From Zobellia alginiliquefaciens (GTDB lineage Bacteria; Bacteroidota; Bacteroidia; Flavobacteriales; Flavobacteriaceae), in contig NZ_CP119758.1 of the NCBI RefSeq assembly GCF_029323795.1, positions 4,278,001-4,342,000 on the forward strand: a DNA stretch of 64,000 nt. The letters run 5' to 3'. Under the pieces are notes generated by a model. That model did no database searches, was not told the DNA's origin, and worked only from the letters and a program-made list of their open reading frames with translations. Shown one piece after another: positions 4,746 through 21,723 of this stretch. Position 1 is the stretch's first letter. Every line of letters begins with the position of its first letter. The position numbers were made by a program, and so were the translations under genes.

Positions 4746-4754
4746 ACCAGTTTT

Positions 4755-5132: not shown

Positions 5133-5485
5133 TTAATTTTAGGTTTTAAAATCAAAATTGCAAAGGTCGTAATGAAAATTATTGATGGTATCTGAAAAGC
5201 CAAATAGTTAAACTTCTCAATTGGTATTTCTGTTAAACGCCTAATTAATGGTGTGAGCATTAACCCAAAAATCAGGATTCTAAAAATTCTCTTTTTAAAA
5301 TATCTCGTAAAAAATGAAATAAGTCCAATTAATCCAATAATTGCAAAAATTTGGTCATTATTGCCAAATTCAAAACTTGTCCAAAATAGCCATACAATAA
5401 ATGGAATTCCAATCATTTGTCCCATTAGAATTATCAGCGAGTAAGAAGTCAAAGAAATGGTCTTTATGATGGTTTCAAATTTCAA
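5129..5485 (-). CDS. Cassette 14, first gene: small membrane protein
   Basis: About 118 aa from a TTG at 5485. No ATG lies near the cassette boundary in this frame, and longer versions would run through the recombination site, so the start is uncertain. Three or four hydrophobic segments (SYSLIILMGQMIGIPFIVWLF, IFAIIGLIGLISFF, ILIFGLMLTPL, IIFITTFAILIL) indicate an inner-membrane protein of unknown function. Its TGA stop overlaps the ATG of the following envelope gene by 4 bp. The cassette ends are GTTGTAACCA and TGGTTACAAC. Confidence 0.65.
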   Translation of the reverse strand: MKFETIIKTISLTSYSLIILMGQMIGIPFIVWLFWTSFEFGNNDQIFAIIGLIGLISFFTRYFKKRIFRILIFGLMLTPLIRRLTEIPIEKFNYLAFQIPSIIFITTFAILILKPKIK

Positions 5486-5507
5486 TTTCGAGGTTTTTCT
5501 TAAATTG

Positions 5508-5704
5508 GTTACAACGGTTGAGCTATGAACAGTACGGGAGCAAACTAGCGTTTGCATTCCGCCACGCACATAGCGAAATCTTTGTGTTTTGTTTTTTCTT
5601 TTTTTCTGCCCAAAGCAAAATCCCAAAGATTTTGCGGACTTCATAAAAATACACAAACCTTAGCGTTTAAAGCCTAAGCCCGTATTGTTTATAGGTGTTG
5701 TTGT
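5508..5704 (-). repeat. attC-like site 4 (family II)
   Basis: Family II: GAGCTATGAACAGTACGGG pairs with CCCGTATTGTTTATAGG. Inner stems include GCAAA/TTTGC and CAAAATC/GATTTTG. Cores are AACGG at about 5513 and GTTGTGCGC at 5700-5708. Confidence 0.85.
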
Positions 5705-6135
5705 GCGCTGGCTTTTCCACATTCTAATTGGCTTTCAACTATTTTTTCGAGTTCATTTTGTTTAAAATCAAACCATTTTTGCCTAAAATCTGATTGGTCG
5801 ATTATATTTTTAAAATTCTGAAATGGCTTTTTCTTTTCTAAAATGTCTCTTAATTTTAATTTGAATTTTTCGTCCGTCATTTGCTCAGAGAAACGTTCCA
5901 TTATTTTAAATGACTCAAAGCTTTCTAATACTTCAAATTTTATAAAATCCGCTTTGTGGTTCTTTATCTTATTTAAGTCATCTCGGAAAAACTCCTTTAA
6001 TTCTTGTTCGTCTGAAGTGTCAGAGAAGTTTGGAATTGTAACCATTTCCTTTGTTTTCAAATTGTAATAGCAGTTATTTCCACAATCCAGATTTTCAGCA
6101 ATTTCCTTGACAATATTTTGTTGAAAATTATCCAT
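5689..6135 (-). CDS. Cassette 13, second gene: UPF0158-like protein
   Basis: 148 aa, resembling UPF0158 family members: an N-terminal strand pair (DCGNNCYYNLKTKEMVTIPNF), a helical middle (FIKFEVLESFESFKIMERF) and a C-terminal PFQNFKNIIDQSDFRQKWFDFK like the family's 'F..FK..L......W..F' motif. Function of the family is unknown. It overlaps the preceding DUF3024 gene by 8 bp. Its stop codon (5689-5691) lies beyond the cassette boundary inside the attC-like site, so the last residues are encoded by the core sequence. A diverged copy is at 12103-12549. Confidence 0.75.
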   Translation of the reverse strand: MDNFQQNIVKEIAENLDCGNNCYYNLKTKEMVTIPNFSDTSDEQELKEFFRDDLNKIKNHKADFIKFEVLESFESFKIMERFSEQMTDEKFKLKLRDILEKKKPFQNFKNIIDQSDFRQKWFDFKQNELEKIVESQLECGKASAQQHL

Positions 6136-6472
6136 AAAAGCAATGGTGTTTATCTTCTTTTATGATTTGTATGATTTTTTCCAAATGTGTTGATTTTGGA
6201 AAAGGTTCGTACAATTCCCATTTTCCACTAGCACGCATCCAATATAGATTCCATTCTTGTTTGGACTTGTAGAATCTAATTTTAGCAAATTCAATTTGTT
6301 GTTGTTCTTTAGGATTGTTCCAGTCAGGTCTAATTTCATAAAGCAATGCAACTTTTCCGTCATATGAGTATCCGAAATCAAGTTGAGCACGAATCTCTGG
6401 ATTATCCGGACGTAATGATTCCACGTATTTTTTTAAGGTCGATTCGTTAATGTCAATTGTGGTGTTTTTCAT
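6128..6472 (-). CDS. Cassette 13, first gene: DUF3024 family protein
   Basis: 114 aa, start ATG at 6472 about 27 bp inside the cassette end. Contains the DUF3024-type core VALLYEIRPDWNNP...FAKIRFYKSKQEWNLYWMRASGKWELYEP, followed by a C-terminal DKHHCFYG. It is a small cytoplasmic protein of unknown function. It overlaps the UPF0158-like gene by 8 bp, and the same pair recurs in cassette 7, so the two probably act together, perhaps as an accessory stress or toxin-antitoxin-like pair (speculative). Confidence 0.8.
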   Translation of the reverse strand: MKNTTIDINESTLKKYVESLRPDNPEIRAQLDFGYSYDGKVALLYEIRPDWNNPKEQQQIEFAKIRFYKSKQEWNLYWMRASGKWELYEPFPKSTHLEKIIQIIKEDKHHCFYG

Positions 6473-6497
6473 TCAACTAAAATATTTTTCAACTTGC

Positions 6498-6690
6498 GCA
6501 CAACGGTTTAGCTATGAACAGTACGGGGGCAAACTAACGTTTGCTTTCCGCCACGCACATAGCGAAATCTTTTTGTTTTGATTTATTTTTTCTTGTCCAG
6601 AGCAAAATCCCAAAGATTTTGCGGACATCATAAAAATACGCAAACCTTTGATTTAAGCCTGAAGCCCGTATTGTTTATAGGTTTTGTTGT
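6498..6690 (-). repeat. attC-like site 5 (family II)
   Basis: GCTATGAACAGTACGGG pairs with CCCGTATTGTTTATAGG, with the same inner arms as site 4. Cores are AACGG near 6503 and GTTGTAAGCA near 6687. Confidence 0.85.
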
Positions 6691-6702
6691 AAGCAGTTTT
6701 AT

Positions 6703-7164
6703 TTAGCAATACAATTCGGGATTTTTCGTATGCTTTATTGGTTCATCATAAATCAAATGCCAGTCAATTATTCTGTCCGAAATCCAATCATAAATTTCAT
6801 CCCCCGTTTGTGGTTCGTCTTCAATTTTCAATAAATCCAATTCACTATTAATTTCGGAAATAATCTCTTTGTCAAATACACGCTCATCAGTTAGTTTTTC
6901 CCGCAAGTATTCCACTAATATTCCGTGGCATTTTTCATTAAAATTGATGTTTCCATTGCGATTAGCTTCGTCCCGCAATTTTTCGATTGCTCTTAATAAT
7001 TCTCCAACCACAAATTCCGCCTGTCCATTCTTTGGAACGTAATTAGCCCAAATTCCCCTAGCTTTTTCATCATAAGCTTTCTCCTCACGTATTTTCAAAT
7101 ACTGTTCGTATTCGCCTAACTCTTTTTCCTTTTTTCTACCGAAAAGGTTTTTAAAAAATCCCAT
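6703..7164 (-). CDS. Cassette 12: hypothetical helical protein
   Basis: 153 aa, ATG at 7164 about 27 bp from the right cassette end TGCTTACAAC, stop 17 bp from the left end. The N-terminal MGFFKNLFGRKKEKE is a basic amphipathic stretch as in peripheral membrane proteins. The rest is charged and mostly helical (FVVGELLRAIEKLRDEANRNG, ILVEYLREKLTDERVF). The C-terminus GDEIYDWISDRIIDWHLIYDEP recalls small immunity-type or adaptor proteins, but I cannot assign a family. Confidence 0.75.
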   Translation of the reverse strand: MGFFKNLFGRKKEKELGEYEQYLKIREEKAYDEKARGIWANYVPKNGQAEFVVGELLRAIEKLRDEANRNGNINFNEKCHGILVEYLREKLTDERVFDKEIISEINSELDLLKIEDEPQTGDEIYDWISDRIIDWHLIYDEPIKHTKNPELYC

Positions 7165-7186
7165 TTTAAATCTAAGGTTAAATTGC

Positions 7187-7375
7187 TTACAACGTCTCGG
7201 CTAAGCGTAGTGCGGTGGTAAGGAAACTTTTCGTTTCCGTCTTCGCACGAAGCTAAAGCTTTTGGTTTTGCTTTTTCTTTTTTTGTCCAAAGCTAAATCC
7301 CAAAGATTTAGCGACTTCATAAATATACACAGACCTTAGATTCTAGCCCATAAGTCCGCATTACGTTTAGGCATT
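7187..7375 (-). repeat. attC-like site 6 (family I), right end split by an IS
   Basis: CGGCTAAGCGTAGTGCGG pairs with CCGCATTACGTTTAGG. The right core is separated: CATT (7372-7375) is duplicated at 9100-9103 beyond the IS1182-family element, followed by GTTGTGTATA, the left end of cassette 11. Confidence 0.85.
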
Positions 7376-9099
7376 GTGCCTGTTGCACAAGTTAGGAAAA
7401 AATAGGGTTGTGATCATTGCCAATAGGGAGAAGGATCGTAACTTTAGGTATGCAGGGAAAAAAGGAGTATCAGGAAAAGCTTTTTGCACAATTTCAACTA
7501 AGCGAGCGCATCCCCAAGAACAATTTTTACAGGCGTTTGAAATGCGTTCTGGATTTGGAATTTCTTTATATGCTTACCCGTCCCTATTATGGAGAGAGCG
7601 GCCAGAAGAGCATCGACCCCGTTGTGTTCTTCAAGTTATGTCTTGTAGGCTACTTGGAGAACATCATCAGCGACCGTAAGCTTATCGACCATTGTTCTAT
7701 GCGCTTGGATATACTATATTTCATAGGCTACGATATCGACGAGGAGCTGCCATGGCATTCTACCATAAGCCGTACCCGCCAACTTTACCCGGAGTCGGTA
7801 TTCGAGGAAGTGTTCACCAAAGTCTTTTGCATGTGTGTTGAGAAGGGGATGGTCTCCGGTCATACCCAGGCGATCGACAGTGCGCCCGTGAAAGCGAACG
7901 CTTCTATGGATACCTTGGAGCCCAAGGTACCGGAAGATGAACTTGACGAGCACCTTAGAAAGGTACGTACCCTTAGTTCGATGGATAAAGAAGCGCCCCA
8001 CCGCAAGAGTAAAGGCGACAGGTCGGATAAAGGACAACGAAGTGTTACCGCCAACAATAAGGAACTTGATGCGATAAAGGGCAGGAACAAGAAATGGGCA
8101 AAAGATCAGGATCAGAGACCGGGCGCAGGTAACAAAGGAGCAAAGTATACGAGCAACAAGACCCATTACAGCCCTACCGACCCCGATGCCAGGATAAGCG
8201 TAAAGCCGGGCAAGGCCAGAAAGCTGAACTACCTCAGTCAGTTGAGCGTCGATACCGCCCATCATGTGATCACGGACATCAGGGCATACCATGCCGATGG
8301 AAAGGACAACCAGCAGTTACAGGATATCGTACAACGCCTACAAAGAAGATTATGGCAACAGGGCTTCGTTTTTGAGAACTGCGTGGCCGACACGGGCTAT
8401 AGCAGTGGCGAGAACTATGCCTTTTTGGAAAGCAGGGGGCTCAAGAGTTTCATACCCGCCCACGGAACCTTCAAGGGAGGTCCCGATGGTTTCGTTTATG
8501 AACAAGGGACGGACAGCTACCGCTGTCCCCAAGGGAAAACCATACCGTTCACCAAGGAGTTCAGGGACCATCGCACGGGAACAAGAAAGAAGGAATACAG
8601 GGCAAGAAAGCATATCTGCACCGGGTGCCCCATACGCAGTAGCTGCCTGGGCAAAAGTGCACAGGAGAAGAAGTTCGGCGTCACTTATTACCGTGCGGAA
8701 TATTTTCGTAACATCGCCCGGGTGAAGAGCCCCCAAGGACGCTATATGAAGGGTAAGCGGCAAAGCACGGTAGAGCCCGTATTCGGAACGTTGACCCAGT
8801 TCATGGGACTGAGGAAGATAAATACCATCGGGATCGAACAGGCCAACAAGGTAATGCACCTATCTGCGATCGCCTACAATCTGAAAAAGTATCTGAAATT
8901 CGACCAAAAACTTGTGGAAAGCGGGGTAGGAACACCCGCTTTTGCAACACTTGTCAAAAGTGCCTTTGAATTACTGTTCGGTCCTTCTTTAAAGCGTCCA
9001 AAATTAGCTTTCCCTTTCTGAGCGGCCAAAAAAAAAGCCCGGTAAAGAGGCTTGTATAAATCCGCTTTTTCAGGGATTAATGACTTGTGCAACGGTTAC
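7376..9099 (+). mobile_element. Second IS1182-family insertion sequence, in attC-like site 6
   Basis: 1724 bp. Imperfect terminal inverted repeats GTGCCTGTTGCACAAGTTA (left) and GTAACCGTTGCACAAGTCA (reading in from the right) with 4-bp target duplication CATT. Removing it restores GTTTAGGCATTGTTGTG, a normal site right edge. It is unrelated at the ends to the other IS1182-family element at 2966-4617. Confidence 0.85.
7450..9021 (+). CDS. IS1182-family transposase
   Basis: 523 aa from ATG 7450 (MQGKKEYQEKLF); an upstream in-frame ATG at 7417 would add 11 residues. DUF772-like N-terminus (SIDPVVFFKLCLVGYLENIISDRKL), DDE residues in QAIDSAPVKANASMD and VADTGYSSGENY, a Cys cluster (CTGCPIRSSCLG) near residue 410, and the terminal glutamate in QSTVEPVFGTLTQFMGLRK. 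Apparently full length. The sequence differs substantially from the other IS1182 transposase in this array, so the two insertions are independent. Confidence 0.95.
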   Translation: MQGKKEYQEKLFAQFQLSERIPKNNFYRRLKCVLDLEFLYMLTRPYYGESGQKSIDPVVFFKLCLVGYLENIISDRKLIDHCSMRLDILYFIGYDIDEELPWHSTISRTRQLYPESVFEEVFTKVFCMCVEKGMVSGHTQAIDSAPVKANASMDTLEPKVPEDELDEHLRKVRTLSSMDKEAPHRKSKGDRSDKGQRSVTANNKELDAIKGRNKKWAKDQDQRPGAGNKGAKYTSNKTHYSPTDPDARISVKPGKARKLNYLSQLSVDTAHHVITDIRAYHADGKDNQQLQDIVQRLQRRLWQQGFVFENCVADTGYSSGENYAFLESRGLKSFIPAHGTFKGGPDGFVYEQGTDSYRCPQGKTIPFTKEFRDHRTGTRKKEYRARKHICTGCPIRSSCLGKSAQEKKFGVTYYRAEYFRNIARVKSPQGRYMKGKRQSTVEPVFGTLTQFMGLRKINTIGIEQANKVMHLSAIAYNLKKYLKFDQKLVESGVGTPAFATLVKSAFELLFGPSLKRPKLAFPF

Positions 9100-9122
9100 C
9101 ATTGTTGTGTATAGTGCTTTTT

Positions 9123-9623
9123 TTATTCAATCCAACTCGTTTTATATACTTTTGATATTTCTCCATTCTCAAAAAAGAATAAATAAGCTATTCCATTTGC
9201 GCCTTCTTTTCCGACTCGGTTTGTTGTCACGTTAATCAGCAAATTATCGTTGTCCAATTTAGATAATTCCGCATTCGGTTTTCTTTTCTTTTTCACACAA
9301 TCTAATTCCAATTCGGAAATTTTGCGTTTGGTGTTTTCTAGTTTTTTATAAATCGGATAAGTTTTGGTCTTATCAAAATCAAATATCTTTTCTTTTTCAA
9401 CACCTAATTGATGAGCAACATATTCTGATGAAAAAATATCATAATTCCATCCGTTTCCAATTTTGGAATCAAATCTAAAATTCCGAGTTTTTAATTCCTT
9501 ATCAGCTTTAAGGTATTTAACCGCTGATTTGATTTGTCCGCACAGTTGTCCGTCAGAAATTTTCTCCAAATTCTGTCCATAAACCGAAGTCGTTAACAAT
9601 AAAAGAAGTATTATATTTTTCAT
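9123..9623 (-). CDS. Cassette 11: secreted hypothetical protein
   Basis: 166 aa from ATG 9623. The N-terminal MKNIILLLLLTTSVYG is a cleavable signal peptide (cut before QNLEK), so the product is exported to the periplasm or outside. The mature part is Lys-rich and helical in its first half, with a C-terminal IAYLFFFENGEISKVYKTSWIE strand pair. No family recognised. Cassette ends GTTGTGTATA and TATACACAAC match; the left core now lies just beyond the IS1182-family element. Confidence 0.75.
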   Translation of the reverse strand: MKNIILLLLLTTSVYGQNLEKISDGQLCGQIKSAVKYLKADKELKTRNFRFDSKIGNGWNYDIFSSEYVAHQLGVEKEKIFDFDKTKTYPIYKKLENTKRKISELELDCVKKKRKPNAELSKLDNDNLLINVTTNRVGKEGANGIAYLFFFENGEISKVYKTSWIE

Positions 9624-9646
9624 TCGAGACGGTTTTTCCGCATTAT

Positions 9647-9846
9647 ACACAACGGTACGGCTATGGCAAGTTGGGCAGCAAGGAAACCTTTTTGTTTCCG
9701 TCTGCGCTCGTAGCCAGAGCTTTTTGTTTTGTAATTAATTTCATTTTTTAATTGCCAAATCCAAAAGATTTGGCGGACTTGGCAAACACGCCCAATCCTT
9801 TAAATTCAGCACTTTATGCCCTATTTGCTATAGGTTTTGTTAGCAA
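9647..9846 (-). repeat. attC-like site 7 (single-member type)
   Basis: Outer arms GGCTATGGCAAGTTGGGC and GCCCTATTTGCTATAGG; inner arms GGAAAC/GTTTCC and GCCAAATC/GATTTGGC. Same layout as family I but with its own bases. Cores are AACGG near 9651 and GTTAGCAAC near 9839. Confidence 0.8.
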
Positions 9847-10259
9847 CTGCTATTTTTCCACACGTTCTGTTTTTCCGCTTTTTTATATAATTTTTTTAGT
9901 CGTTTTTCAATTTCTCGATACGCTTTGCGATATTGCCTTTCTGTCCAAATTGCTCCTAAACAATTCACATCTTTATCCATCATTATCAAATTCAGAGTCT
10001 GAGTCGGCTTTTCAATTTTTATTTTGTCAGTTGTCAGTCCAATCATTTGAAATTCCAGAGTGTCATTTTCCGTTGCGATTATTTCATAGCCACCATTTTG
10101 GTCAGATATAGATTCCGCTCCGCTATTCAGGTTCGTGATTTTTACTCCGAATAAACAAGTCAGTTTTTCATCCACTATTTTTCCGCTCAAGTTTGGTCCA
10201 ATTTGAGCAAAAGTCAAATTAGAAATGCCAATTAATATTATGAGCAGGATTCTTTTCAT
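9840..10259 (-). CDS. Cassette 10: secreted CarboxypepD_reg-like domain protein
   Basis: 139 aa. Signal peptide MKRILLIILIGISNLTFA, then a carboxypeptidase-regulatory-like beta domain (LSGKIVDEKLTCLFGVKITNLNSGAESISDQNGGYEI...LEFQMIGLTTDKIKI) of the kind found at the N-terminus of TonB-dependent receptors, here free-standing. A basic helical tail (KAYREIEKRLKKLYKKAEKQ) follows. The TAA stop (9840-9842) overlaps the GTTAGC cassette core: the boundary itself provides the stop codon. Function unknown, location probably periplasm or outer surface. Confidence 0.8.
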   Translation of the reverse strand: MKRILLIILIGISNLTFAQIGPNLSGKIVDEKLTCLFGVKITNLNSGAESISDQNGGYEIIATENDTLEFQMIGLTTDKIKIEKPTQTLNLIMMDKDVNCLGAIWTERQYRKAYREIEKRLKKLYKKAEKQNVWKNSSC

Positions 10260-10263
10260 AGTT

Positions 10264-10463
10264 GTTGCTAACGGTCTGGGCTAAGCGTAGTGCGGGGGCA
10301 AGGAAACTTTTCGTTTCCGTCTGCGCACGAAGCTAAAACTTTTGGTTTAGTTTTATTTTTTCTTGTCTTAAGCTAAATCCCAAAGATTTAGCGACATTAT
10401 AAATATACACAGACCTTTCGTTTTTGCCCTACAGTCCGCATTACGTTTAGGTTGTGTTGTGCA
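10264..10463 (-). repeat. attC-like site 8 (family I), copy A of the duplicated unit
   Basis: GGGCTAAGCGTAGTGCGGGGG pairs with the CCGCATTACGTTTAGG arm; identical to site 12. Cores are AACGG at 10270-10274 and GTTGTGCAAC near 10458. Confidence 0.85.
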
Positions 10464-11044
10464 ACGTTTTTTTACGCGATTTCATTTCCGTCAAAGTCCC
10501 ACTTATACACTTTTTTGTCCCAATCCAACGCTTTGATATAGTTGTCCGAAATTTCAAAATCATCTGTTTTATCAGCTGACACAAAAATATCCGCCCCTCC
10601 ATTTTTCCATACTATTTGTCCATCGTCGTCAATTCTTGAAATTTCCATTTCTCCATGAACTATATAGCCATTTTCTATCTTAAAAATCTCAAAACAAGTA
10701 AACTCGTCCACTTTGGATTTCCAGATTAGATTTAGGTCTGGTATTCCTAAACAAAAAATCGTGTCGCCGCAACAAACTAATATTCGCTCTTTTTCAATTA
10801 TTTGTGAAGTCTCGTGTAATCCAGAAGCACCCCCTTCGGCGCCAATAATTGCGTTTTGAGATTCAAGTCCATTTTCTAAAATCTGTATTCCGAATTTTGT
10901 TGCAAGAATAAAGTCTGATTCAGTAAAAAAGCTTTTTCGATACTCGATATTATTGTCCTTCGAACCTATTTGAAAATCAGATTCGTTTAATAATTTGACG
11001 ATATATTTTCCAATTTCGAATGTCATTTGAAATGTTGCACAACG
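10270..11044 (-). repeat. Exact 775-bp duplicated cassette unit, copy A
   Basis: Site 8 plus cassette 9 appears identical to 13617-14391 (site 12 plus cassette 5). Similarity begins and ends within the tetranucleotide AACG at both edges, with unrelated sequence outside. This defines one complete mobile unit. Confidence 0.9.
10472..11026 (-). CDS. Cassette 9: beta-propeller-like hypothetical protein, copy A
   Basis: 184 aa, ATG at 11026 about 13 bp inside the cassette end GTTGCACAAC. The sequence has repeated short beta strands with blade-like turns (RILVCCGDTIFCLGIPDLNLIWKSK, YIVHGEMEISRIDDDGQIVWKNGG, YIKALDWDKKVYKWDFDG), resembling PQQ- or WD-type propeller blades. No signal peptide, so probably cytoplasmic. 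Function unknown. The protein is identical to that at 13819-14373. Confidence 0.8.
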   Translation of the reverse strand: MTFEIGKYIVKLLNESDFQIGSKDNNIEYRKSFFTESDFILATKFGIQILENGLESQNAIIGAEGGASGLHETSQIIEKERILVCCGDTIFCLGIPDLNLIWKSKVDEFTCFEIFKIENGYIVHGEMEISRIDDDGQIVWKNGGADIFVSADKTDDFEISDNYIKALDWDKKVYKWDFDGNEIA

Positions 11045-11168
11045 GTAGGTATAACCGAAGTTACGGGATTAAAGTTAATGTTTTTCGGCTTATCACAGGC
11101 TTTAGCAATTGTGAGTGGATTCGGACGTAGTCGTATCCGCCGTAATTGCGGTTATACATCGTTGTGCT
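11036..11168 (-). repeat. attC-like site 9 (family III)
   Basis: GGTATAACCG pairs with CGGTTATACATC; the inner arms contain GTGGATTCGGACGTAG and GTATCCGCC. Closely related to site 3. Cores are AACGG at 11041-11045 and GTTGTGCTTA at 11161-11170. Confidence 0.85.
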
Positions 11169-11179
11169 TAGTGTTTTTT

Positions 11180-11908
11180 TCACTCTGTTAATTTTCGGAT
11201 AATCATAAAACTACCATAATCTGCTAAATCAATCGGAAATCTTTTAATTTTTTCCGTTACTATTTTTTGTCCGTTTTTGGTTAATTCCACTTGCCAATCA
11301 CTTGAGACTGGGAAAATAATCGGTTTTGTCAAAGTCTCATTGTCCTCTGCGAAATTCAAGTCCCAATTCCATTTTGGTTTTTCTCTGTCCGCTTGATAAG
11401 GTTCACAATTCCACAAGCTGATTTTTGTTTCCGATTCTGCTTTTTCAGTCGGCTTTAAAGTCTCAACGAGTGGTTTGAACATATTGATTCTTGAGTTGTG
11501 TGGTAAATCAGGGGAATTTTCAAACCCAATTCTTTTCCAAAAAGGCTCTGAATTTTCAGGCGAACAAAATAATTCACAAACTAAAATACCTTTTTGACCA
11601 AAGTATTCTAAAGTGTCATTAATTAATTTTCTTGCAATTCCTTTTTTCCTTTCAGTTGGTTTAGTTTCGGCTATGTCGATTACTGCTTGAAATTCATAGA
11701 TTCTATAAACTGTAAATCCGATTGCAAAATCATTTTTGGTGATTACAGCTACGTTATTTTTCGCAAACTCGTCTTCAATTATATTCCAATTGCAATAAAA
11801 TCCGCTGTTCGTTTTATTCCATTCTTCAATCAGCCAATTTTTTATATCAGCAAGATGTTTTTCGGAAGGATGAAAGTTTGTTTTTAGCACGATTTCAACA
11901 TTAAGCAC
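11180..11908 (-). CDS. Cassette 8: GNAT N-acetyltransferase with C-terminal extension
   Basis: 242 aa. GNAT fold in the first about 150 residues: an acetyl-CoA loop in TKPTERKKGIARKLINDTLEYF, followed by ELFCSPENSEPFWKRIGFE as in strand and helix 5-6 of the family. The C-terminal part (about 150-242) is unassigned. The substrate is unknown. The likely start is GTG at 11908, inside the terminal core sequence GTTGTGCTTAA itself, or a GTG at 11890; an ATG at 11901 is out of frame. A second, smaller GNAT protein is in cassette 2. Confidence 0.8.
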   Translation of the reverse strand: MLNVEIVLKTNFHPSEKHLADIKNWLIEEWNKTNSGFYCNWNIIEDEFAKNNVAVITKNDFAIGFTVYRIYEFQAVIDIAETKPTERKKGIARKLINDTLEYFGQKGILVCELFCSPENSEPFWKRIGFENSPDLPHNSRINMFKPLVETLKPTEKAESETKISLWNCEPYQADREKPKWNWDLNFAEDNETLTKPIIFPVSSDWQVELTKNGQKIVTEKIKRFPIDLADYGSFMIIRKLTE

Positions 11909-12120
11909 AACGGTTTAGCTATGAACAGTACGGGAGCAAACCAGCGTTTGCTTTCCGCCACGCACATAGCGAAATCTTTTTGTTTTGTTTTTTCTTTTCC
12001 TTGTTTAAAGCAAAATCCCAAAGATTTTGCGGACTTCATAAAAATACACAAAACCTGCGATCCTGCCTGCCGGCAGGCAGGTAAGCCCGAAGCCCGTATT
12101 GTTTATAGGTTGTGTTGTGC
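11905..12120 (-). repeat. attC-like site 10 (family II)
   Basis: GCTATGAACAGTACGGG pairs with CCCGTATTGTTTATAGG. It is longer than its relatives because of an inserted perfect GC-rich palindrome, CCTGCCTGCCGGCAGGCAGG, at 12062-12081. Cores are AACGG at 11909-11913 and GTTGTGCGC at about 12115. Confidence 0.85.
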
Positions 12121-12549
12121 GCTGGCTTTTCCACGTTCTAATTGGCTTTCTACTATTTTTTCGAGTTCATTCTGTTTAAAATCAAACCATTCTTGTCTAA
12201 AATCTGATTGGTCGATAGTATTTTTAAAATTCTGAAAAGGCTTTTTCTTTTCTAAAATGTCTCTCAATTTGAATTTGAATTTTTCGTCCGTCAATTGCTC
12301 AGAGAAACGTTCCATTATTTTAAATGATTCAAAGCTTTCTAATACTTCAAATTTTATAAAATCCGCTTTGTGGTCATTTATCTTATTTAAGTCATCTCGA
12401 AAAAATTCTTTTAGTTCTTGTTCGTCCGAGGTGTTTGAGAAATTTGGAATTGTAACAATTTCATTTGTTTTGGAATTGAAATAACAATTGTTTCCGCAAT
12501 CCAGATTTTCCACAATTTCCTTGATAATATTTTTTTGAGAATTATCCAT
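12103..12549 (-). CDS. Cassette 7, second gene: UPF0158-like protein (paralogue)
   Basis: 148 aa from ATG 12549, aligning along its whole length with the product of 5689-6135 (same start MDN, core LDCGNNCYFNSKTNEIVTIPNF, tail KIVESQLERGKASAQ). It overlaps the upstream DUF3024 gene by 8 bp exactly as in cassette 13, and again its stop lies inside the attC-like site. The divergence between the copies shows an old duplication or independent acquisition of the same cassette type. Confidence 0.75.
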   Translation of the reverse strand: MDNSQKNIIKEIVENLDCGNNCYFNSKTNEIVTIPNFSNTSDEQELKEFFRDDLNKINDHKADFIKFEVLESFESFKIMERFSEQLTDEKFKFKLRDILEKKKPFQNFKNTIDQSDFRQEWFDFKQNELEKIVESQLERGKASAQHNL

Positions 12550-12886
12550 AAAAGCAATGGTGTTTATCTTCTTTGATAATTTCAATAATTTTTTCTAAAT
12601 ATGTTGATTTGGGAAACGGTTCGTAAAGTTCCCATTTCCCACTAGCACGCATCCAATATAGATTCCATTCCTGCTTAGATTTGTAGAACCTTATTTTCGC
12701 AAATTCACTTTGTTGTAGTTTTTTAGGATTGTTCCAATCAGGTCGAACTTCATAAAGAATCTCAACTTTTCCGTCATAAGAATATCCATAATCTAGTTGA
12801 GAACGAATTTCTGGATTCTCCGGACGTAAAGATTCCACATACTTTTTTATAGTCGATTCGTTAATGTCAATCGTGGTATTTTTCAT
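12542..12886 (-). CDS. Cassette 7, first gene: DUF3024 family protein (paralogue)
   Basis: 114 aa, collinear with 6128-6472 and nearly identical in the core (QEWNLYWMRASGKWELYEPFPKS) and tail (KEDKHHCFYG). It starts about 25 bp inside the cassette end. The cassette boundaries are the same GTTGTGCGC / GCGCACAAC pair as in cassette 13, and both cassettes carry a family II site, so gene pair and site descend together. Confidence 0.8.
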   Translation of the reverse strand: MKNTTIDINESTIKKYVESLRPENPEIRSQLDYGYSYDGKVEILYEVRPDWNNPKKLQQSEFAKIRFYKSKQEWNLYWMRASGKWELYEPFPKSTYLEKIIEIIKEDKHHCFYG

Positions 12887-12909
12887 TCAACTAAAATATT
12901 TTTTCAGCT

Positions 12910-13116
12910 TGCGCACAACGCCTGAGCTATGATTAGTGCGGAACCAAGGAAACTGTAAAGTTTCCGTCTTCGCGCTAAGCCGAAGCTTTTTGTTTGCGTT
13001 TTTTCTTTTTTAATTATTAAAATGTCAAATCAAACTGATTTGGCGACCTTATAAAATTACGCAAAACTTAGAATTAAACACCAAACCACCCGCATTAATT
13101 CATAGGTTTTGTTGTG
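12910..13116 (-). repeat. attC-like site 11 (single-member type)
   Basis: GAGCTATGATTAGTGCGG pairs with CCGCATTAATTCATAGG; inner arms GGAAAC/GTTTCC and CAAATCA/TGATTTG. Cores are AACG near 12917 and GTTGTGCTTA at about 13111. Confidence 0.8.
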
Positions 13117-13577
13117 CTTAGTTTTTCTACTTCCAGTCGAGATTTCGATAGTTTGACTATTCTAAATTTATTAGATACAAGTCTTTTGGGAGAACCAAAT
13201 TTAGCAAACTCCTCGGGATGTTTTTCTTTAAGTTCTTTTATGACCTTTTTATTACGGTACATAATTATTAATCCATTTTTAACATCATATTCCCATGTTC
13301 CTTTTTCTGTATAAGTAACTGGGCAAATATAAGGGTGAAGCATCTGCTCTTCACTTTCATTATATGCCAAAAGGGAAATTTCAGAACTTTTTATTGTTAG
13401 TTTAGGATTCGAATCTTCACAACGTTTATAAATTAGCTTCCTTGGACGACTTCCATCTTCGTTTCGTTCTAAAATCCAACAGCCATATAAATCAAATTCA
13501 GCAATCGGATTTTCCTGTCCATTTACGGTAGTTCCAACAGTCAGAAAAATTAGGAAGATAACAGCTAGTTTTTTCAT
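13095..13577 (-). CDS. Cassette 6: secreted small lipocalin-like protein
   Basis: 160 aa from ATG 13577. Signal peptide MKKLAVIFLIFLTVGTTVNG, then FDLYGCWILERNEDGSRPRKLIYKRC...CPVTYTEKGTWEYDVKNGLIIMYRNKKVI, a pattern of strand repeats typical of small secreted lipocalin-like proteins ('GCW' in place of 'GxW'). Function unknown. The frame runs past the cassette boundary: the last residues (TTKPMN) and the TAA at 13095-13097 are provided by the attC-like site. Confidence 0.75.
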   Translation of the reverse strand: MKKLAVIFLIFLTVGTTVNGQENPIAEFDLYGCWILERNEDGSRPRKLIYKRCEDSNPKLTIKSSEISLLAYNESEEQMLHPYICPVTYTEKGTWEYDVKNGLIIMYRNKKVIKELKEKHPEEFAKFGSPKRLVSNKFRIVKLSKSRLEVEKLSTTKPMN

Positions 13578-13611
13578 ATTAGTTGAATCATCAAAAATTG
13601 CTCCAAAATTA

Positions 13612-13811
13612 AGCACAACGGTCTGGGCTAAGCGTAGTGCGGGGGCAAGGAAACTTTTCGTTTCCGTCTGCGCACGAAGCTAAAACTTTTGGTTTAGTTT
13701 TATTTTTTCTTGTCTTAAGCTAAATCCCAAAGATTTAGCGACATTATAAATATACACAGACCTTTCGTTTTTGCCCTACAGTCCGCATTACGTTTAGGTT
13801 GTGTTGTGCAA
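13612..13811 (-). repeat. attC-like site 12 (family I), copy B
   Basis: Identical to site 8. Cores are AACGG at 13617-13621 and GTTGTGCAAC near 13805. Confidence 0.85.
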
Positions 13812-14391
13812 CGTTTTTTTACGCGATTTCATTTCCGTCAAAGTCCCACTTATACACTTTTTTGTCCCAATCCAACGCTTTGATATAGTTGTCCGAAATT
13901 TCAAAATCATCTGTTTTATCAGCTGACACAAAAATATCCGCCCCTCCATTTTTCCATACTATTTGTCCATCGTCGTCAATTCTTGAAATTTCCATTTCTC
14001 CATGAACTATATAGCCATTTTCTATCTTAAAAATCTCAAAACAAGTAAACTCGTCCACTTTGGATTTCCAGATTAGATTTAGGTCTGGTATTCCTAAACA
14101 AAAAATCGTGTCGCCGCAACAAACTAATATTCGCTCTTTTTCAATTATTTGTGAAGTCTCGTGTAATCCAGAAGCACCCCCTTCGGCGCCAATAATTGCG
14201 TTTTGAGATTCAAGTCCATTTTCTAAAATCTGTATTCCGAATTTTGTTGCAAGAATAAAGTCTGATTCAGTAAAAAAGCTTTTTCGATACTCGATATTAT
14301 TGTCCTTCGAACCTATTTGAAAATCAGATTCGTTTAATAATTTGACGATATATTTTCCAATTTCGAATGTCATTTGAAATGTTGCACAACG
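13617..14391 (-). repeat. Exact 775-bp duplicated cassette unit, copy B
   Basis: Site 12 plus cassette 5, the second copy of 10270-11044. Outside the AACG edges the two copies have unrelated neighbours (cassette 6 and site 13 here, cassette 10 and site 9 for copy A). Confidence 0.9.
13819..14373 (-). CDS. Cassette 5: beta-propeller-like hypothetical protein, copy B
   Basis: 184 aa, identical in sequence to the product of 10472-11026. The absence of any difference suggests a recent copy event rather than selection on protein alone, because the noncoding site is also unchanged. Function unknown, cytoplasmic. Confidence 0.8.
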   Translation of the reverse strand: MTFEIGKYIVKLLNESDFQIGSKDNNIEYRKSFFTESDFILATKFGIQILENGLESQNAIIGAEGGASGLHETSQIIEKERILVCCGDTIFCLGIPDLNLIWKSKVDEFTCFEIFKIENGYIVHGEMEISRIDDDGQIVWKNGGADIFVSADKTDDFEISDNYIKALDWDKKVYKWDFDGNEIA

Positions 14392-14509
14392 TCTAATGTA
14401 TGATCTGTACGGCTTTGAAATCCGTAGGATTTCCCGCCGTACGATTACATTCTAAATATACGTAGATTTTCCGACGGAAAATCGGACAGTATAGATTATA
14501 CATATTGTT
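14384..14509 (-). repeat. attC-like site 13 (family IV)
   Basis: TCTAATGTATGATCTGTACGG pairs in part with ACAGTATAGATTATACAT; inner hairpins are GAAATCCGTAGGATTTC and GATTTTCCGACGGAAAATC. Cores are AACG at 14388-14391 and GTTAGCAAAC at 14497-14506. Confidence 0.8.
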
Positions 14510-14876
14510 AGCAAACGTGTTGCAGCGCAAACCCTTAATCTTGTCGCAGAACACTGATTTATTCCCCAAACTCTTTTAAAATGGTTTCTTTTTTTAAGTC
14601 CGTCGAGCCTAAATAGTAACCGATTTAAGTTTTTCGTTTTCGAACAGAAAATAGCAAATAACTAGCAAGTCCGTTCGCGCAACAGTTGCGTCTGAGTAAA
14701 GTCCGTCCGAGCGAGAACTTTGGCAAGGTGATTTATTAATTAAACAGCTGAATTTTGAGAAAGTAACAAGCCTCAAGAAACCATTTTAAAAATGCTGATT
14801 TGCCCGAACCAAACTCTTATTATTTTTTAGATATTCAGGCTAATTGCGCAACGATTTTATTTTTATGGCAATATGT
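14510..14876 (-). other. Cassette 4: gene-less cassette with long inverted repeat
   Basis: No ORF with coding character. It contains a 17-base inverted repeat, TTTTAAAATGGTTTCTT near 14574 and AAGAAACCATTTTAAAA near 14779, enclosing a 40-base segment (14667-14706, core GCGCAACAGTTGCG) that also occurs in cassettes 3 and 15. Cassette ends GTTAGCAAAC and GTTTGCTAAC match. It is a diverged copy of cassette 3. It may specify a structured RNA or be a degraded gene. Confidence 0.6.
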
Positions 14877-15010
14877 TTGCTAACGTCTAATGTATGATCT
14901 GTACGGTTTTGAAATCCGTAGGATTTCCCGCCGTACGATTACATTCTAAATATACGTAGATTTTCCGACGGAAAATCGGACAGTATAGATTATACATATT
15001 GTTAGCAAAC
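14874..15010 (-). repeat. attC-like site 14 (family IV)
   Basis: Almost identical to site 13 (the first hairpin differs by about one base, GGTTTT for GGCTTT). Cores are AACG at 14882-14885 and GTTAGCAAAC at 15001-15010. Confidence 0.8.
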
Positions 15011-15365
15011 GTGTTGCAGCGCAAACCCTTGGTCTTGTCACAGAACACTGATTAGTTTCCCAAACACTTTTAAAATGGTTTCTTTTTTAGTCCGCCGTAC
15101 TTTAAAAGTATACAATTTTGGTCTTTCGGTTTTGCCCGAACTTTGGTAAGAAAGCCGCAAGTCCGTCTGCGCAACAGTTGCGTCTGAGTGAAGTCCGTCC
15201 GAGCGAGAACTTTGGCAAGGTAATTTATTAAAGAAATATCTGAAGTTTGAGAAAGTAACAAGCCTAAAGAAACCATTTTAAAAATGCGGATTTGCCCGAA
15301 CCAAACTCTTATTATTTTTTAGATATTCAGGCTAATTGCGAACCGATTGGACTTTTCTTGCAATA
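15011..15365 (-). other. Cassette 3: gene-less cassette, diverged copy of cassette 4
   Basis: It has the same inverted repeat (AAAATGGTTTCTTTTTT near 15072, AAAGAAACCATTTTAAAA near 15268) and the same 40-base segment at 15159-15198 as cassette 4, but the intervening bases differ. A 68-codon ORF at 15070-15276 has no coding character and no counterpart in cassette 4. Conserved structure with diverged sequence suggests an RNA or a repeat rather than a protein. Confidence 0.6.
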
Positions 15366-15500
15366 TGTTTGCTAACGTGTTTGGCTATGGTTTCGTTGTG
15401 GAATTGTCCGCAAGGACTATTCCGCGAGAACCAAGCGATGATTGAAAGATAGGAATTTTCGGTGGAAAATTCCGCCACAATGAATTATAGCCGTTGTTGT
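15366..15500 (-). repeat. attC-like site 15 (single-member type)
   Basis: TTGGCTATGGTTTCGTTGTGG pairs with CCACAATGAATTATAGCCG; inner arms are GGAATTGTCC... and GGTGGAAAATTCC. Cores are AACG at 15373-15376 and GTTGTACAC at 15496-15504. Confidence 0.8.
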
Positions 15501-15513
15501 ACACTGGCATAAT

Positions 15514-15939
15514 TTAAGCTTTAAGTTTTAATCTCAAAACTTCATTTCCGCTTTCTTCGTGGCTATATTTTTTTATTCTTTCGAAACCATACTTGTCATA
15601 AAACGCTCTTCCAATAACATTTTTTTCAAAGACCTCGACTTCAAGCTCAGAATGTTTTTGACTAATAAAATCGACCAATTTTGTCCCAATTCCTTTAGAA
15701 TGATTATTTGGTAAAACAAAAAGCCCACCAATTTCGTTCTCCAACATACTTATAAATCCAACTATTGAATTTTCAACTTCATAAACCCACGTTTCCGAGT
15801 TCGGAATATAAATATTAGTCATATCCGATTTTATTTTTTCCACGAAACTAGAATTCAAAAAAGGATGAGCCAATGTGGATGATTTATACCAAACATTAAT
15901 AATTTGCTCAAGATCTTGTTCCTTATGTTTTCTTATCAT
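15514..15939 (-). CDS. Cassette 2: GNAT N-acetyltransferase
   Basis: 141 aa, complete GNAT fold: MIRKHKEQDLEQIINVWYKSS (strand 1, helix 1), VGFISMLENEIGGLFVLPNNHSKGIGTKLVDF with acetyl-CoA loop HSKGIG near residue 82, then VFEKNVIGRAFYDKYGFERI (helix and strand 6-7). It resembles YjaB/PhnO-like small-molecule or protein acetyltransferases; substrate unknown. The ATG at 15939 is about 20 bp inside the cassette end GTGTACAAC. Confidence 0.9.
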   Translation of the reverse strand: MIRKHKEQDLEQIINVWYKSSTLAHPFLNSSFVEKIKSDMTNIYIPNSETWVYEVENSIVGFISMLENEIGGLFVLPNNHSKGIGTKLVDFISQKHSELEVEVFEKNVIGRAFYDKYGFERIKKYSHEESGNEVLRLKLKA

Positions 15940-15954
15940 TTCTAATTTTTAGCT

Positions 15955-16154
15955 TGTGTACAACGATCTAGCTATGAACAGTACGGGAGCAAAATAGCGT
16001 TTACTTTCCGCCACGCACATAGCAAAATCTTTTGGTTTTGTTTTCTCTTTTTTTTCTCCACAAAGCAAAATCCCAAAGATTTTGCGGTCATCATAAATAT
16101 ACGCAAACCCTGCGATTAAGCCCTGAAGCCCGTATTGTTTATAGGTTTTGTTAT
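15955..16154 (-). repeat. attC-like site 16 (family II), nearest the recombinase
   Basis: AGCTATGAACAGTACGGG pairs with CCCGTATTGTTTATAGG. Cores are AACG at 15962-15965 and GTTATCTGC at 16150-16158. Confidence 0.85.
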
Positions 16155-16284
16155 CTGCTGGCTTTTCTGTTGGGGTTAAATTTCGATTAGGTCTGACATT
16201 ATTAGCTTTAAAATGAAAAAGAATTTAAACTGTAACAAAACTTTTACTGGTTCGTCTTTGAAATATAGTAAAACACTAAAATTT

Positions 16285-17328
16285 ATGAAACATTTTTTTT
16301 CTACTCTTTTATTGGTAGTTATTTCAACAACTTTCATGAACTGTAAAAGTCATACTTCTATAGATTCTTATATGAAAGAGCTAGTAGCAGATGGTGATTT
16401 TAATGGAAATGTTTTAGTGGTTTTAAATGGAGAAGAAGTTTACCAAAATTCTTTCGGGTTTTCAGATGGCTCTAAAACAGTTAAGTTAACTAAAGATTTT
16501 CGTTTCGATTTAGGGTCAGTATACAAAGAGTTTCCAGCAGTTTCAATCATGCAACTTCAAGAAAAAGGATTGCTTAATGTAGAGCATAAAATAAATAAAT
16601 ATTTAAAAGATTTGCCAAGTTGGGCATCAACAATTTCAATTAAAAATTTATTGCAATACACAAGTGGTCTTCCTGAAGTTGAATGGGATAAGTACTTTGA
16701 GAAAAATGAACGGATTACTGATGAAAAAATTAAGGAAGATTTAATAGATATAGAAGAGTTGGAGTTTGAGCCAGGTGCAGATTACTTATATACGAATCAT
16801 AGTCCAATGTTATTGTCGCAAATTGTAGAAAAAGTCACAAATCAAACTTTTAAAGTGTATGTTACTCAAAATTTATTCATTCCATTTTCTTTAAAAGATG
16901 CAGTAATTCATCCAGAAGCCCCATATTTAGATAAAAGCTTAATGGCTATTCCTTTTAATGAAAATTATGAGGAAGATTCTTATAAAGTAACAATCTCGGG
17001 AGCTATTTTTAGTTTAACTGCAAACGATTTATATAATTGGATAGAAAACCTTCATTCTTATAAAATTATAAATCAAGAATCCATAAAGTTCTTGTCTGAA
17101 GAAGCCGATTTTTTTGGGAATATCCAATCTCCTTTGGGTTCTGTAGAATGGACAAAGAATAGAATTATTGAGCATTCTCATCATGGTTCTGCTGGGAATT
17201 ATGAATGTATAGTAAGAAGATTTAATAATGATAAAGATGTATTAACGATAATCGTTCAAACAAATCAGAAACATGAAAATGTAGGCGATATTTCAGATGA
17301 AATTAAAAATATTTTAAAATTCAATTAA
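16285..17328 (+). CDS. Cassette 1: serine hydrolase (beta-lactamase family) lipoprotein
   Basis: 347 aa from ATG 16285; an upstream in-frame ATG at 16213 would add 24 residues before the signal peptide. N-terminal MKHFFSTLLLVVISTTFMNC is a signal with a probable lipidated Cys20. The penicillin-binding-like serine hydrolase motifs are SVYK (Ser78-Lys81), YTN (169-171) and HGSAG (300-304). Family members include class C beta-lactamases, DD-peptidases and esterases; the substrate here is unknown. This is the only cassette gene on the plus strand, facing the recombinase, so it must have its own promoter or be silent in an array-wide transcript. Confidence 0.85.
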   Translation: MKHFFSTLLLVVISTTFMNCKSHTSIDSYMKELVADGDFNGNVLVVLNGEEVYQNSFGFSDGSKTVKLTKDFRFDLGSVYKEFPAVSIMQLQEKGLLNVEHKINKYLKDLPSWASTISIKNLLQYTSGLPEVEWDKYFEKNERITDEKIKEDLIDIEELEFEPGADYLYTNHSPMLLSQIVEKVTNQTFKVYVTQNLFIPFSLKDAVIHPEAPYLDKSLMAIPFNENYEEDSYKVTISGAIFSLTANDLYNWIENLHSYKIINQESIKFLSEEADFFGNIQSPLGSVEWTKNRIIEHSHHGSAGNYECIVRRFNNDKDVLTIIVQTNQKHENVGDISDEIKNILKFN

Positions 17329-17414
17329 GTGTCAAAAAAGGGCTTACGTTAAAATTGTGATTTCGGAAGTTTATTCCATTTGACATTATTTAAGTTAAGA
17401 TATTTTTTCAGCTT

Positions 17415-17450
17415 GCAGATAACGTAGTAATATAGATCATATGATCTATA
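17415..17450. other. Candidate attI: cassette 1 end plus 20-bp palindrome
   Basis: GCAGATAAC (17415-17423) is the reverse complement of the start of cassette 1 (GTTATCTGC, 16150-16158), followed by G and, at 17431-17450, a perfect palindrome with half-site TATAGATCAT. No attC-like hairpin follows; the recombinase stop codon is only about 20 bp further. It is the only core in the array without a site attached, as expected for attI. Confidence 0.65.
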
Positions 17451-17468
17451 TATATTATATATGCGGAA

Positions 17469-18596
17469 CTAAGATAAGAGATCTTTTATGCTTTTAAACG
17501 AGGTTTCTGCCACATGAGTGTAAACTTCCGTGGTTTTGGTACTACTGTGGCCTAGCAGCAGTTGAATGTGCCTTATATCAGTGCCGTTTTCAAGAAGGTG
17601 GGTAGCAAAGCTATGACGTAACATGTGAGGTGTAACTTTCTTACGGATGCCCGATCTCATGGCAGCCATAGAGGTAATTTTTAATACACTTGAAGCGGTA
17701 TAGGCTTTTTGACCGGGGCCTTCAAATAGATAGTGCTGTGGTCTATACTCTTTGTAATAAGCACGTAGTTCTTTTAAGAGTGTGGGGCTTAGGACGGTCA
17801 TTCTATCTTTATTGCCCTTGGTCGCCTTAACGCAGATAAGCATTCGCTTTCCATCTATATCGTCTATTTTTAAGTTCAGAAGCTCACTTCTTCTAAGGCC
17901 TGCCGAATATAATAGGGAAATGATACAGCGATGTTTTAAGTTGCGGGTATACTCAATAAGGCTTAGAACTTCTTCTTTTGAAAGTACTTTGGGCAGTTGT
18001 TTTTGTTTAATGGGCCGTTCAATGTTATAGAAGCGGTTGGGCATACCCATGACCACCTCAAAATAGAATTTGATGCTGTTGACTGCTTGGTTTAAATAAG
18101 AGTGTGAACGGACATCCCTTGTTAGCTTTTGCAAATACTTCCTTACCTCTATCTCAGTAATGGCATTGGGTGGTATGCCGTGAAAATGATTTATAAAGGT
18201 TTCAAAATGGTGTACGTAGGTCTTTACCGTATTTTCCGCATATCTGCTTAATTCCAACTTGTCCAGGTACTCTTCCGGACATCTTTTAAAACCTTCTTTC
18301 AGCTCCCTGTTCCTGTACCAGTTTATGTTATGGGGTTTGTCTGGGTTTAGTCCATGGCTATTCTCGAAAAAATAATTTCCGTTTATCCAGACCTCTCCAC
18401 GAAATGTACTCCAAAGTGTACTAAGGTTGGTTTTATTGTTGAGGACATGATACATGCCATATTCCTGGCTCCAACATATGTGTGGTAATTTCTCCACAAG
18501 CGCTTGGATTACTTTATCAGATTTGAACTGGAGTCCAATATGTTTTACGTTATTTATCAATAAATGTTTTAACGTAATGCTTCTACCTTTAAACAT
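17469..18596 (-). CDS. Tyrosine recombinase, probable integrase of the cassette array
   Basis: 375 aa. Residues 1-104 form an unassigned N-terminal extension; about 105-185 is a SAM-like core-binding domain (YLDKLELSRYAENTVKTYVHHFETF); about 200-370 is the catalytic domain with Arg235 (SAGLRRSELL), Lys260 (KATKGNKDR), His324 and Arg327 (TPHMLRHSFATHLL), His350 (LLGH) and Tyr359 (TTEVYTH). The spacing between Lys260 and His324 is as in XerC/XerD and leaves no room for the extra IntI-specific domain. It lies at the end of the array, transcribed toward it, an orientation known from the Treponema denticola integron but unlike most. Its role in cassette exchange is inferred from position. Confidence 0.9.
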   Translation of the reverse strand: MFKGRSITLKHLLINNVKHIGLQFKSDKVIQALVEKLPHICWSQEYGMYHVLNNKTNLSTLWSTFRGEVWINGNYFFENSHGLNPDKPHNINWYRNRELKEGFKRCPEEYLDKLELSRYAENTVKTYVHHFETFINHFHGIPPNAITEIEVRKYLQKLTRDVRSHSYLNQAVNSIKFYFEVVMGMPNRFYNIERPIKQKQLPKVLSKEEVLSLIEYTRNLKHRCIISLLYSAGLRRSELLNLKIDDIDGKRMLICVKATKGNKDRMTVLSPTLLKELRAYYKEYRPQHYLFEGPGQKAYTASSVLKITSMAAMRSGIRKKVTPHMLRHSFATHLLENGTDIRHIQLLLGHSSTKTTEVYTHVAETSFKSIKDLLS

Positions 18597-18681
18597 GTTA
18601 TTTTTTTTCCAAGTTCATTAATAAAAATGATTTAATCGTATCTTAATCGAATAATGTTCGCATAAAGATTCACTTAAGTTT

Positions 18682-19074
18682 ATGGAAATGAGACTACAAC
18701 ATGAGTGTTTGTACTGTAAAAAGCCACTTACGGGTAGAACGGATAAAAAATATTGCAATCTACATTGCAAGAGTGCTTTCCAATATCAAAAAGAAAAGGA
18801 AAGACCGGAACGCTTTTACAATAAAGTAGACAATCAGCTAAAACTGAACCGGAAGATTCTTAAACAATATAACAAAGGGGGCAAGGTAACGATAAGATGT
18901 AAGGTTCTTTCGGAGCAGGGATTCGATTCCAACTTTTTCACCCACTATTGGAAGAACAAAAAGGGAGACGTATATTTTTTTATTTATGAATACGGTTTCT
19001 TGAAAAAAATCGAATATGGAAAAGAAAAATACATTCTGGTTACCTGGCAAGATTATATGAACAAGGGAATGTAA
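18682..19074 (+). CDS. Small zinc-ribbon protein, function unknown
   Basis: 130 aa, divergent from the recombinase with an 85-bp gap. A putative zinc site near the N-terminus is Cys9-x2-Cys12-x12-Cys25-x3-Cys29 (CLYCKKPL...KKYCNLHC), similar to DUF2116-like ribbons. The middle (KVTIRCKVLSEQGFDSNFFTHYWKNKKGDVYFFIYEYGF) looks like a small beta domain. Such proteins are common beside mobile DNA in Bacteroidetes (from memory), but no function is known. A regulatory or accessory role for the recombinase is possible only by proximity. Confidence 0.7.
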   Translation: MEMRLQHECLYCKKPLTGRTDKKYCNLHCKSAFQYQKEKERPERFYNKVDNQLKLNRKILKQYNKGGKVTIRCKVLSEQGFDSNFFTHYWKNKKGDVYFFIYEYGFLKKIEYGKEKYILVTWQDYMNKGM

Positions 19075-19077
19075 CGG

Positions 19078-19457
19078 GAGGAATAGAAGTTAATTGATTG
19101 TTTATCAATATAATTGGCATTGGCAGTAAACTTGGGTTGTTGTTTCAGTATGTCGTTCGCTAAGGTATGGTTGACCCTCCTTTGCCCGTAGCGCATTACA
19201 AAAATAGGGTTACTATTAATATTCTTTTTAAAATATATGGTTAAAGTAACTAAGTAATTAACCATAAGGGGGCAACCATAGCTATGGTGCTCCTGAATGT
19301 GTATTTGGACAAAATAAGGTTACTTTTTATAGCTTATATGGTGGTATCTAAAAAAAGTATGGTTATATTTTATGTGGTTAAAAAGCTTAGTAGGATATTA
19401 GGCCAATATAATTTAGGACAGTATAAGACAACCATATTTTGGCCTATGCCTATGGTG
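19078..19457. promoter_or_regulatory. Intergenic region with clustered ATGGTT motifs
   Basis: 380 bp without a convincing gene. About ten copies of ATGGTT/AACCAT-type hexamers (ATGGTG variants included) occur in both orientations between 19165 and 19460, including the perfect palindrome ACCATAGCTATGGT at 19275-19288. It could be a binding array for a regulator or for the arm-binding domain of the integrase at 20240-21637. Confidence 0.35.
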
Positions 19458-21637: not shown

Positions 21638-21693
21638 TTTAAAAGTGTTTACGTTTTCGTTTACGGAACGTAATAAAAGGGAAATACAAGACA

Positions 21694-21723
21694 TAAAAAA
21701 ACGGATTGTAGTACGCAATCCGT
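21694..21723 (-). terminator. Terminator of tRNA-Met
   Basis: Perfect stem ACGGATTG/CAATCCGT with a 7-base loop (21701-21723), followed on the minus strand by a run of seven T. Lies 25 bp beyond the 3' end of the tRNA. Confidence 0.8.

Follow-up and report, generated by a model that had tools for sequence, protein, structure and literature searches.

We analyzed a window of 64,000 nucleotides (nt) from Zobellia alginiliquefaciens, positions 4278001–4342000 of the single 5.07-Mb contig of this genome. An array of about 14 small gene cassettes (approximately 4620–17424) lies there beside a gene (int) for a tyrosine recombinase on the minus strand (17469–18596), and one cassette is present in two identical copies of 775 bp. 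Read on the minus strand, the order within the unit is box, gene, inner box, hairpin and CGTT, and each cassette closes with a hairpin site of 120–205 nt. The cassette genes are small, coding for GNAT acetyltransferases, DUF3024, UPF0158-like, CarboxypepD_reg-like and hypothetical proteins, and all except one are on the minus strand. The region is very probably an integron-like platform, composed of a recombinase gene, an attI-like site and an array of short cassettes that each pair a gene with a hairpin site. In the list of features below, an own-box match denotes complementarity between the start box of a cassette and its own inner box.

A cassette array beside a tyrosine recombinase

4620–5516, minus strand: leftmost well-preserved cassette, cut off by an insertion sequence (IS; 3003–4553)
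5513–6505, minus strand: cassette with UPF0158-like and DUF3024 open reading frames (ORFs), a diverged relative of 11909–12920; 87–90% identity in another genome (G212)
6502–7194, minus strand: cassette with a 153-residue ORF; own box of 10 nt
7191–9654, minus strand: cassette whose inner-box region is broken by an IS; DDE transposase at 7417–9021
9651–10273, minus strand: cassette with a CarboxypepD_reg-like ORF; gene also in genome G087 (locus L061), with a compensatory box change
10270–11044, minus strand: copy 1 of the duplicated cassette, bounded by AACG and equal to copy 2; 184-residue ORF at 10472–11026, hairpin site at 10270–10462
11041–11912, minus strand: cassette with a GNAT acetyltransferase; found in another genus at 90% identity, ending at AACG
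11909–12920, minus strand: cassette with UPF0158-like and DUF3024 ORFs; own-box match
12917–13620, minus strand: cassette with a 173-residue ORF; own-box match
13617–14391, minus strand: copy 2 of the duplicated cassette; ORF at 13819–14373, site at 13617–13809
14388–14885, minus strand: cassette without an obvious ORF; own-box match
14882–15377, minus strand: cassette without an obvious ORF, related to its neighbor 14388–14885; own-box match
15374–15965, minus strand: cassette with a GNAT acetyltransferase; own-box match
15962–17424, minus strand: cassette closest to the recombinase; serine hydrolase/beta-lactamase family gene at 16213–17328 on the plus strand
17421–17468, minus strand: attI-like site, the palindrome ATATAGATCATATGATCTATAT followed by NACGTT
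17469–18596, minus strand: tyrosine recombinase of 375 residues with a 100-residue N-terminal extension, SAM-like and catalytic domains and no IntI patch
18682–19074, plus strand: zinc-ribbon ORF of 130 residues, divergent from int and kept next to it in 21 loci

Base-by-base alignment of 10270–11044 with 13617–14391 bears out the original prediction of two identical segments, as 775 of 775 bases are the same with 0 differences. AACG is present at both ends of both copies. The left neighbors are GCT and CAC and the right neighbors G and T, and when identity was sought past AACG, even one extra base on either side failed to match. The copies are not in tandem but are separated by 2.57 kb that contain three other cassettes (11041–13620). 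An exact repeat of this length is far beyond chance. It is very unlikely to be an artefact of misassembly, and there is no collapse to one copy, both standing in a single-contig genome. The further suggestion that the duplication is recent is supported, and it would represent a single re-insertion event of the cassette.

The original prediction also defined the mobile unit as a left-hand site together with a right-hand gene in the plus-strand view, which is a gene followed by its site on the coding strand, and placed the crossover inside AACG (CGTT on the coding strand), as in integrons. Independent tests agree with both statements: all 12 intact cassettes in the window obey own-box complementarity, both junctions of the GNAT cassette that recurs in another genus are at AACG, and two 98.9% identical platforms in the genome diverge only past AACG. 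The AACG breakpoint was met again, independently, in other genomes. The sequences place it within AACG as a whole, not at one nucleotide of it. The one-copy state with clean junctions that the prediction called for is seen in other genomes for the array cassettes 11041–11912 and UPF0158/DUF3024. Insertion sequences break two sites of the array, one (7385–9100) near the inner box of cassette 7191–9654 and the other (3003–4620) at the left end of the site near 4620.

Own-box complementarity and strand-biased hairpins

In integrons the end of each linear attC site belongs to the next cassette, and the start of a cassette pairs with its own inner core only in the circle. The window array follows the same rule. 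In 12/12 intact cassettes the start box, GTT plus 6–7 nt with several different sequences in the window, is complementary to the inner box of the same cassette over 9–10 nt, while the linear neighbor usually matches over just 3–7 nt; the two units interrupted by insertion sequences are uninformative for this comparison. The own box of copy 1 of the duplicated cassette, for example, is GTTGTGCAAC (10 nt). In other genera, arrays next to homologous recombinases show an own-box match of at least 8 nt in 92 of 122 cassettes, compared to 3 of 172 matches of that length to linear neighbors and 3 of 162 to other boxes of the same array. Such pairing of the start box with the inner box of its own cassette, and not with that of the neighbor, reads as the signature of a circularized cassette. 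When cassette 9651–10273 is compared with its counterpart in G087, the box is altered on both sides, from GTTAGCAAC to GTTGGCAAC together with TGCTAACG to TGCCAACG, which is a compensatory change.

The sites, which contain a hairpin, a spacer and a variable loop, fall into two length classes of about 123 nt (short) and about 188 nt (long). We aligned 34 short-class and 25 long-class sites from many genera. Both classes have a long stem, in which changes on both sides occur at 14 of 20 pairs (short) and 23 of 34 pairs (long). Two G·T wobbles are almost constant, being present in 25/25 and 24/25 sites of the long class and in 25/34 and 32/34 of the short one; no extrahelical bases were seen in these alignments. 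The conserved wobbles are G·T on the non-coding strand only and become A·C mismatches on the coding strand. In a strand-bias scan that scored A·C and G·T alike, the expected strand yielded 172 sites and the opposite one 5, with 542 G·T against 91 A·C; a G·T excess was present in 157 sites and an A·C excess in 3. For a structured RNA in the cassette transcript the opposite asymmetry would be expected. An Rfam scan of positions 1–24500 of the window gave a tRNA as its single match; the hairpins thus do not represent a described RNA family. The boxes are best written as GTTR plus about 6 variable nt: the integron motif GTTRRRY fits 12 of 119 boxes where 7.4 are expected, GTT itself being invariant through detection.

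The recombinase and its attI-like site

The closest relatives of the 375-residue recombinase are in Maribacter (81% identity), and its best-matching solved relatives are, in order, archaeal XerA (154 bits), IntI4 in two pieces and XerD. It narrowly passes the profile NF040815, 'XerA/integron integrase' (226 bits, cut-off 220), and scores 190 bits over its whole length against TIGR02249, where the cut-off is 265. The TIGR02249 match is in two pieces that skip profile positions 185–246, and alignment with two IntI proteins shows a gap in the recombinase, which is without the insertion before the second catalytic motif. In a tree that included just two IntI proteins, the recombinase falls together with IntI and some further simple recombinases, separate from XerA/C/D (100/99). 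The predicted structure (pLDDT 77, pTM 0.48) matches the fold of XerA and then IntI4, and given this modest confidence the fold matches serve as support only. A Pfam scan of the 100-residue N-terminal extension gave sub-threshold matches only; a HARP-like W...W motif in it was spotted by eye. Outside Bacteroidota, a recombinase with 50% identity and a similar N-terminal extension occurs in a Spirochaetes metagenome-assembled genome (L037).

Messier and Roy reportedly described the IntI-specific additional domain of integron integrases in 2001. This domain defines IntI (PMC9668308), and because it has no counterpart in the recombinase, the latter is, judged by its sequence, not an integron integrase under that definition. 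The I2 helix docks the extrahelical bases of attC (PMC7790495); here neither helix nor bases are present, a coherent difference from integrons.

Directly past the int stop codon, the palindrome followed by NACGTT is kept in about 20 loci; it is conserved up to GTT, after which come unrelated first cassettes. More distant recombinase clades have other sequences, placed alike after the recombinase. In the second platform copy of this genome identity starts at the same AACG and the first cassette differs, also obeying the own-box rule. The zinc-ribbon ORF beside the recombinase has 40–87% identity across the 21 loci and no match in Pfam.

The two platforms (17421–21789 in the window and 4207425–4211770 in the genome, G000) are 98–99% identical and about 88 kb apart. 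A 43-bp repeat of the 3′ end of tRNA-Met suggests tandem integrative islands that carry the platform, with a 492-residue recombinase (20240–21718) as the island integrase. This larger recombinase adjoins tRNA-Met and seems to serve the platform-bearing island as its integrase. As the cassette enzyme it was rejected, since it accompanies just 5 loci.

The likeness to integrons and superintegrons, with their IntI, attI and attC, is extensive. The recombinase adjoins an attI-like site, and the array consists of one-gene cassettes with attC-type hairpin sites at their 3′ ends. Core and inverse core are complementary within the cassette, the R box being completed in the array by the next cassette and complementary only within the circle. 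The crossover is compatible with G^TT, and bottom-strand folding and a central unpaired spacer appear to be shared as well. attC is described as a bottom-strand hairpin with an unpaired central spacer (UCS), extrahelical bases (EHB) and a variable terminal structure (VTS) (PMC2727003). In contrast to integrons, the recombinase is without the IntI-specific domain, the boxes are GTTR plus about 6 variable nt instead of RYYYAAC/GTTRRRY, and nearly invariant G·T wobbles stand in place of extrahelical bases. Also unlike integrons, the recombinase of the window clade reads toward the array, attI is a palindrome right after its stop codon, and a divergent zinc-ribbon ORF is conserved. The catalytic domain resembles XerA, XerC and XerD, but the 100-residue extension, the cassette arrays alongside and the separate clade in the tree do not. 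The sites differ from the short dif-like sites of XerC/D in being long hairpins with cassette-specific boxes. An 'Integron-like' subgroup of tyrosine recombinases, defined by a phylogenetic position with integron integrases, has been described (PMC8138268); the recombinase may belong to it, given its grouping with the two IntI proteins in the tree. Taken as a whole, the system appears to work like an integron, yet it is not an IntI integron as now defined.

Movement of cassettes and resistance genes

Among 199 Flavobacteriaceae genomes, short-class sites are present in 174 (E 1e-4 or better) and a recombinase homologue in 123 (E 1e-50 or better), about 37 of these at 54% identity or more. A sample of 118 genomes across the phylum includes 35 that have sites at E 1e-6 or better. 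Where both are on the same contig, the sites are mostly downstream of the recombinase and on the opposite strand, in arrays of up to about 50 kb (genomes G113 and G068), and in many genera int has its arrays on the same side. In the Zobellia genome the sites cluster at the window array, at the second platform and in two arrays near 1.52 and 1.59 Mb. The latter two (G000:C1) have no recombinase copy nearby, akin to the clusters of attC sites lacking integrase (CALIN elements) of integrons. The GNAT cassette 11041–11912 is found in the other genus among other neighbors, with 90% identity and both ends at AACG, and the UPF0158/DUF3024 cassette in G212 at 87–90%. That whole cassettes have been transferred between genera is evident from such comparisons. 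We found no description of such a system in Bacteroidota in the open-access literature (subscription journals and preprints not included).

Unit boundaries, own-box complementarity, covarying strand-biased hairpins, attI junctions and the transfer between genera can all be read from the alignments. The steps of movement would be as follows. The recombinase would bind one folded single strand, the non-coding (bottom) strand, and cut at a presumed position within CGTT. In the excised circle the start box would rejoin its own inner box, and the circle would be inserted at attI or at the site of another cassette. The position of the 375-residue recombinase, the conservation of attI and their co-occurrence point to it as the acting enzyme, and the strand bias and pairing suggest the single-strand route. 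Some observations weigh against the integron-like platform. Genomes with sites outnumber those with int homologues (174 against 123 of 199), so some arrays may be relics or use more distant recombinases. Locus L061 in G087 shares the gene of cassette 9651–10273 at 90.6% identity, yet its hairpin belongs to the other length class; a swap of the hairpin seems to have taken place there, and simple cassette exchange does not account for this.

The most serious alternative accepts platform and cassettes as described but has the sites used double-stranded in the manner of Xer, the hairpins being inverted binding sites. The recombinase indeed has no I2 helix, which is thought to permit single-strand attC recombination (PMC7790495), and the sites are without the classical extrahelical bases. 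On the other hand, a folded strand would account for the G·T/A·C asymmetry between the strands, for the compensatory changes that run along the whole stem and for an R-box pairing restored only in the excised circle, and we consider this alternative unlikely. Movement of the units by host XerC/XerD, on the model of pdif modules or CTX-type elements, is quite improbable. This reading could appeal to the Xer-related recombinase family and to integrative mobile elements exploiting Xer (IMEX), which rely on host Xer (PMC7790495), but the 120–205-nt hairpins with a cassette-specific box of 9–10 nt are no short dif sites, the recombinase clade is apart from XerA/C/D and grouped with IntI, and the arrays have a dedicated recombinase and attI conserved next to them.

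It is extremely improbable that the cassettes owe their movement to a classical IntI integron at another place in the cell, with the local recombinase unrelated to them. The overall layout is like that of classical integrons, and integrases can act in trans; but there is no IntI above the TIGR02249 cut-off in this genome, the boxes fit GTTRRRY only at the count given above, and the attI-like site is attached to the 375-residue recombinase and varies with its clade. Hardly conceivable at all is a reading of the hairpins as structured RNA elements or terminators and of the duplication as an ordinary homologous or segmental one. Covarying hairpins at the 3′ ends of genes would suit it, whereas the best-folding strand is the non-coding one, with G·T there and A·C on the transcript, Rfam matches nothing but the tRNA, and breaks at AACG recur in many independent cases.

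Plasmid homologues of the recombinase led to tet(X3) in Acinetobacter. The 'xerD' upstream of tet(X3) (L084:3986-4841) is a 3′ fragment of the window recombinase family with 53% identity, and the order on the plasmid is truncated 'xerD', attI-like palindrome, GTTATGTGCC (GTT plus the tet(X) start box) and tet(X3). The region thus resembles the window in its recombinase family, palindrome, GTT and start box, and differs from it in the truncated recombinase and in a downstream site that fails to match the tet(X3) start box, so this copy of tet(X3) is altered. Five Weeksellaceae genomes have tet(X) as a complete 1331-bp cassette with a 10-nt own-box match; four of these units, in four genera, are 100% identical from CGTT to CGTT with differing flanks. 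Plasmids of Empedobacter, Myroides, Bacteroides and Sphingobacterium carry the same 1331-bp unit, tet(X2), at 100% identity, and in Riemerella it has 3 differences (loci L086–L090 and L114–L118 for the tet(X) and tet(X2) units). The catB and ere(D) cassettes likewise have a 10-nt own-box match. The unit after tet(X) in one genome bears a box seen at aadS, which probably obeys the own-box rule as well. It appears that tet(X), a last-resort resistance gene, was moved between species by the integron-like system.

For Bacteroidetes proper, an IntegronFinder 2.0 survey named one complete integron, that of Salinibacter (PMC9024848), in contrast to the sites described here, which occur in most Flavobacteriaceae genera sampled. 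On balance, we lean toward a second integron lineage without the IntI domain across Bacteroidota. It would handle folded single strands without an I2 helix and choose the strand through conserved G·T wobbles instead of extrahelical bases, and tet(X), catB, ere(D) and aadS would have been put together and disseminated by it, with other elements later carrying them to Acinetobacter and Enterobacterales. In current thinking integrons depend on the I2 helix of IntI, and a related I2-free clade with strand-biased hairpin arrays makes that model directly testable. The mechanism of tet(X) transfer has been called poorly understood (PMC7494873), no mobile element or integron was found adjoining tet(X14), and whether 'XerD' mobilizes tet(X) was posed as a question (PMC7473080). 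The tet(X) unit bears all the cassette marks of this system, which offers an answer to this open clinical question.

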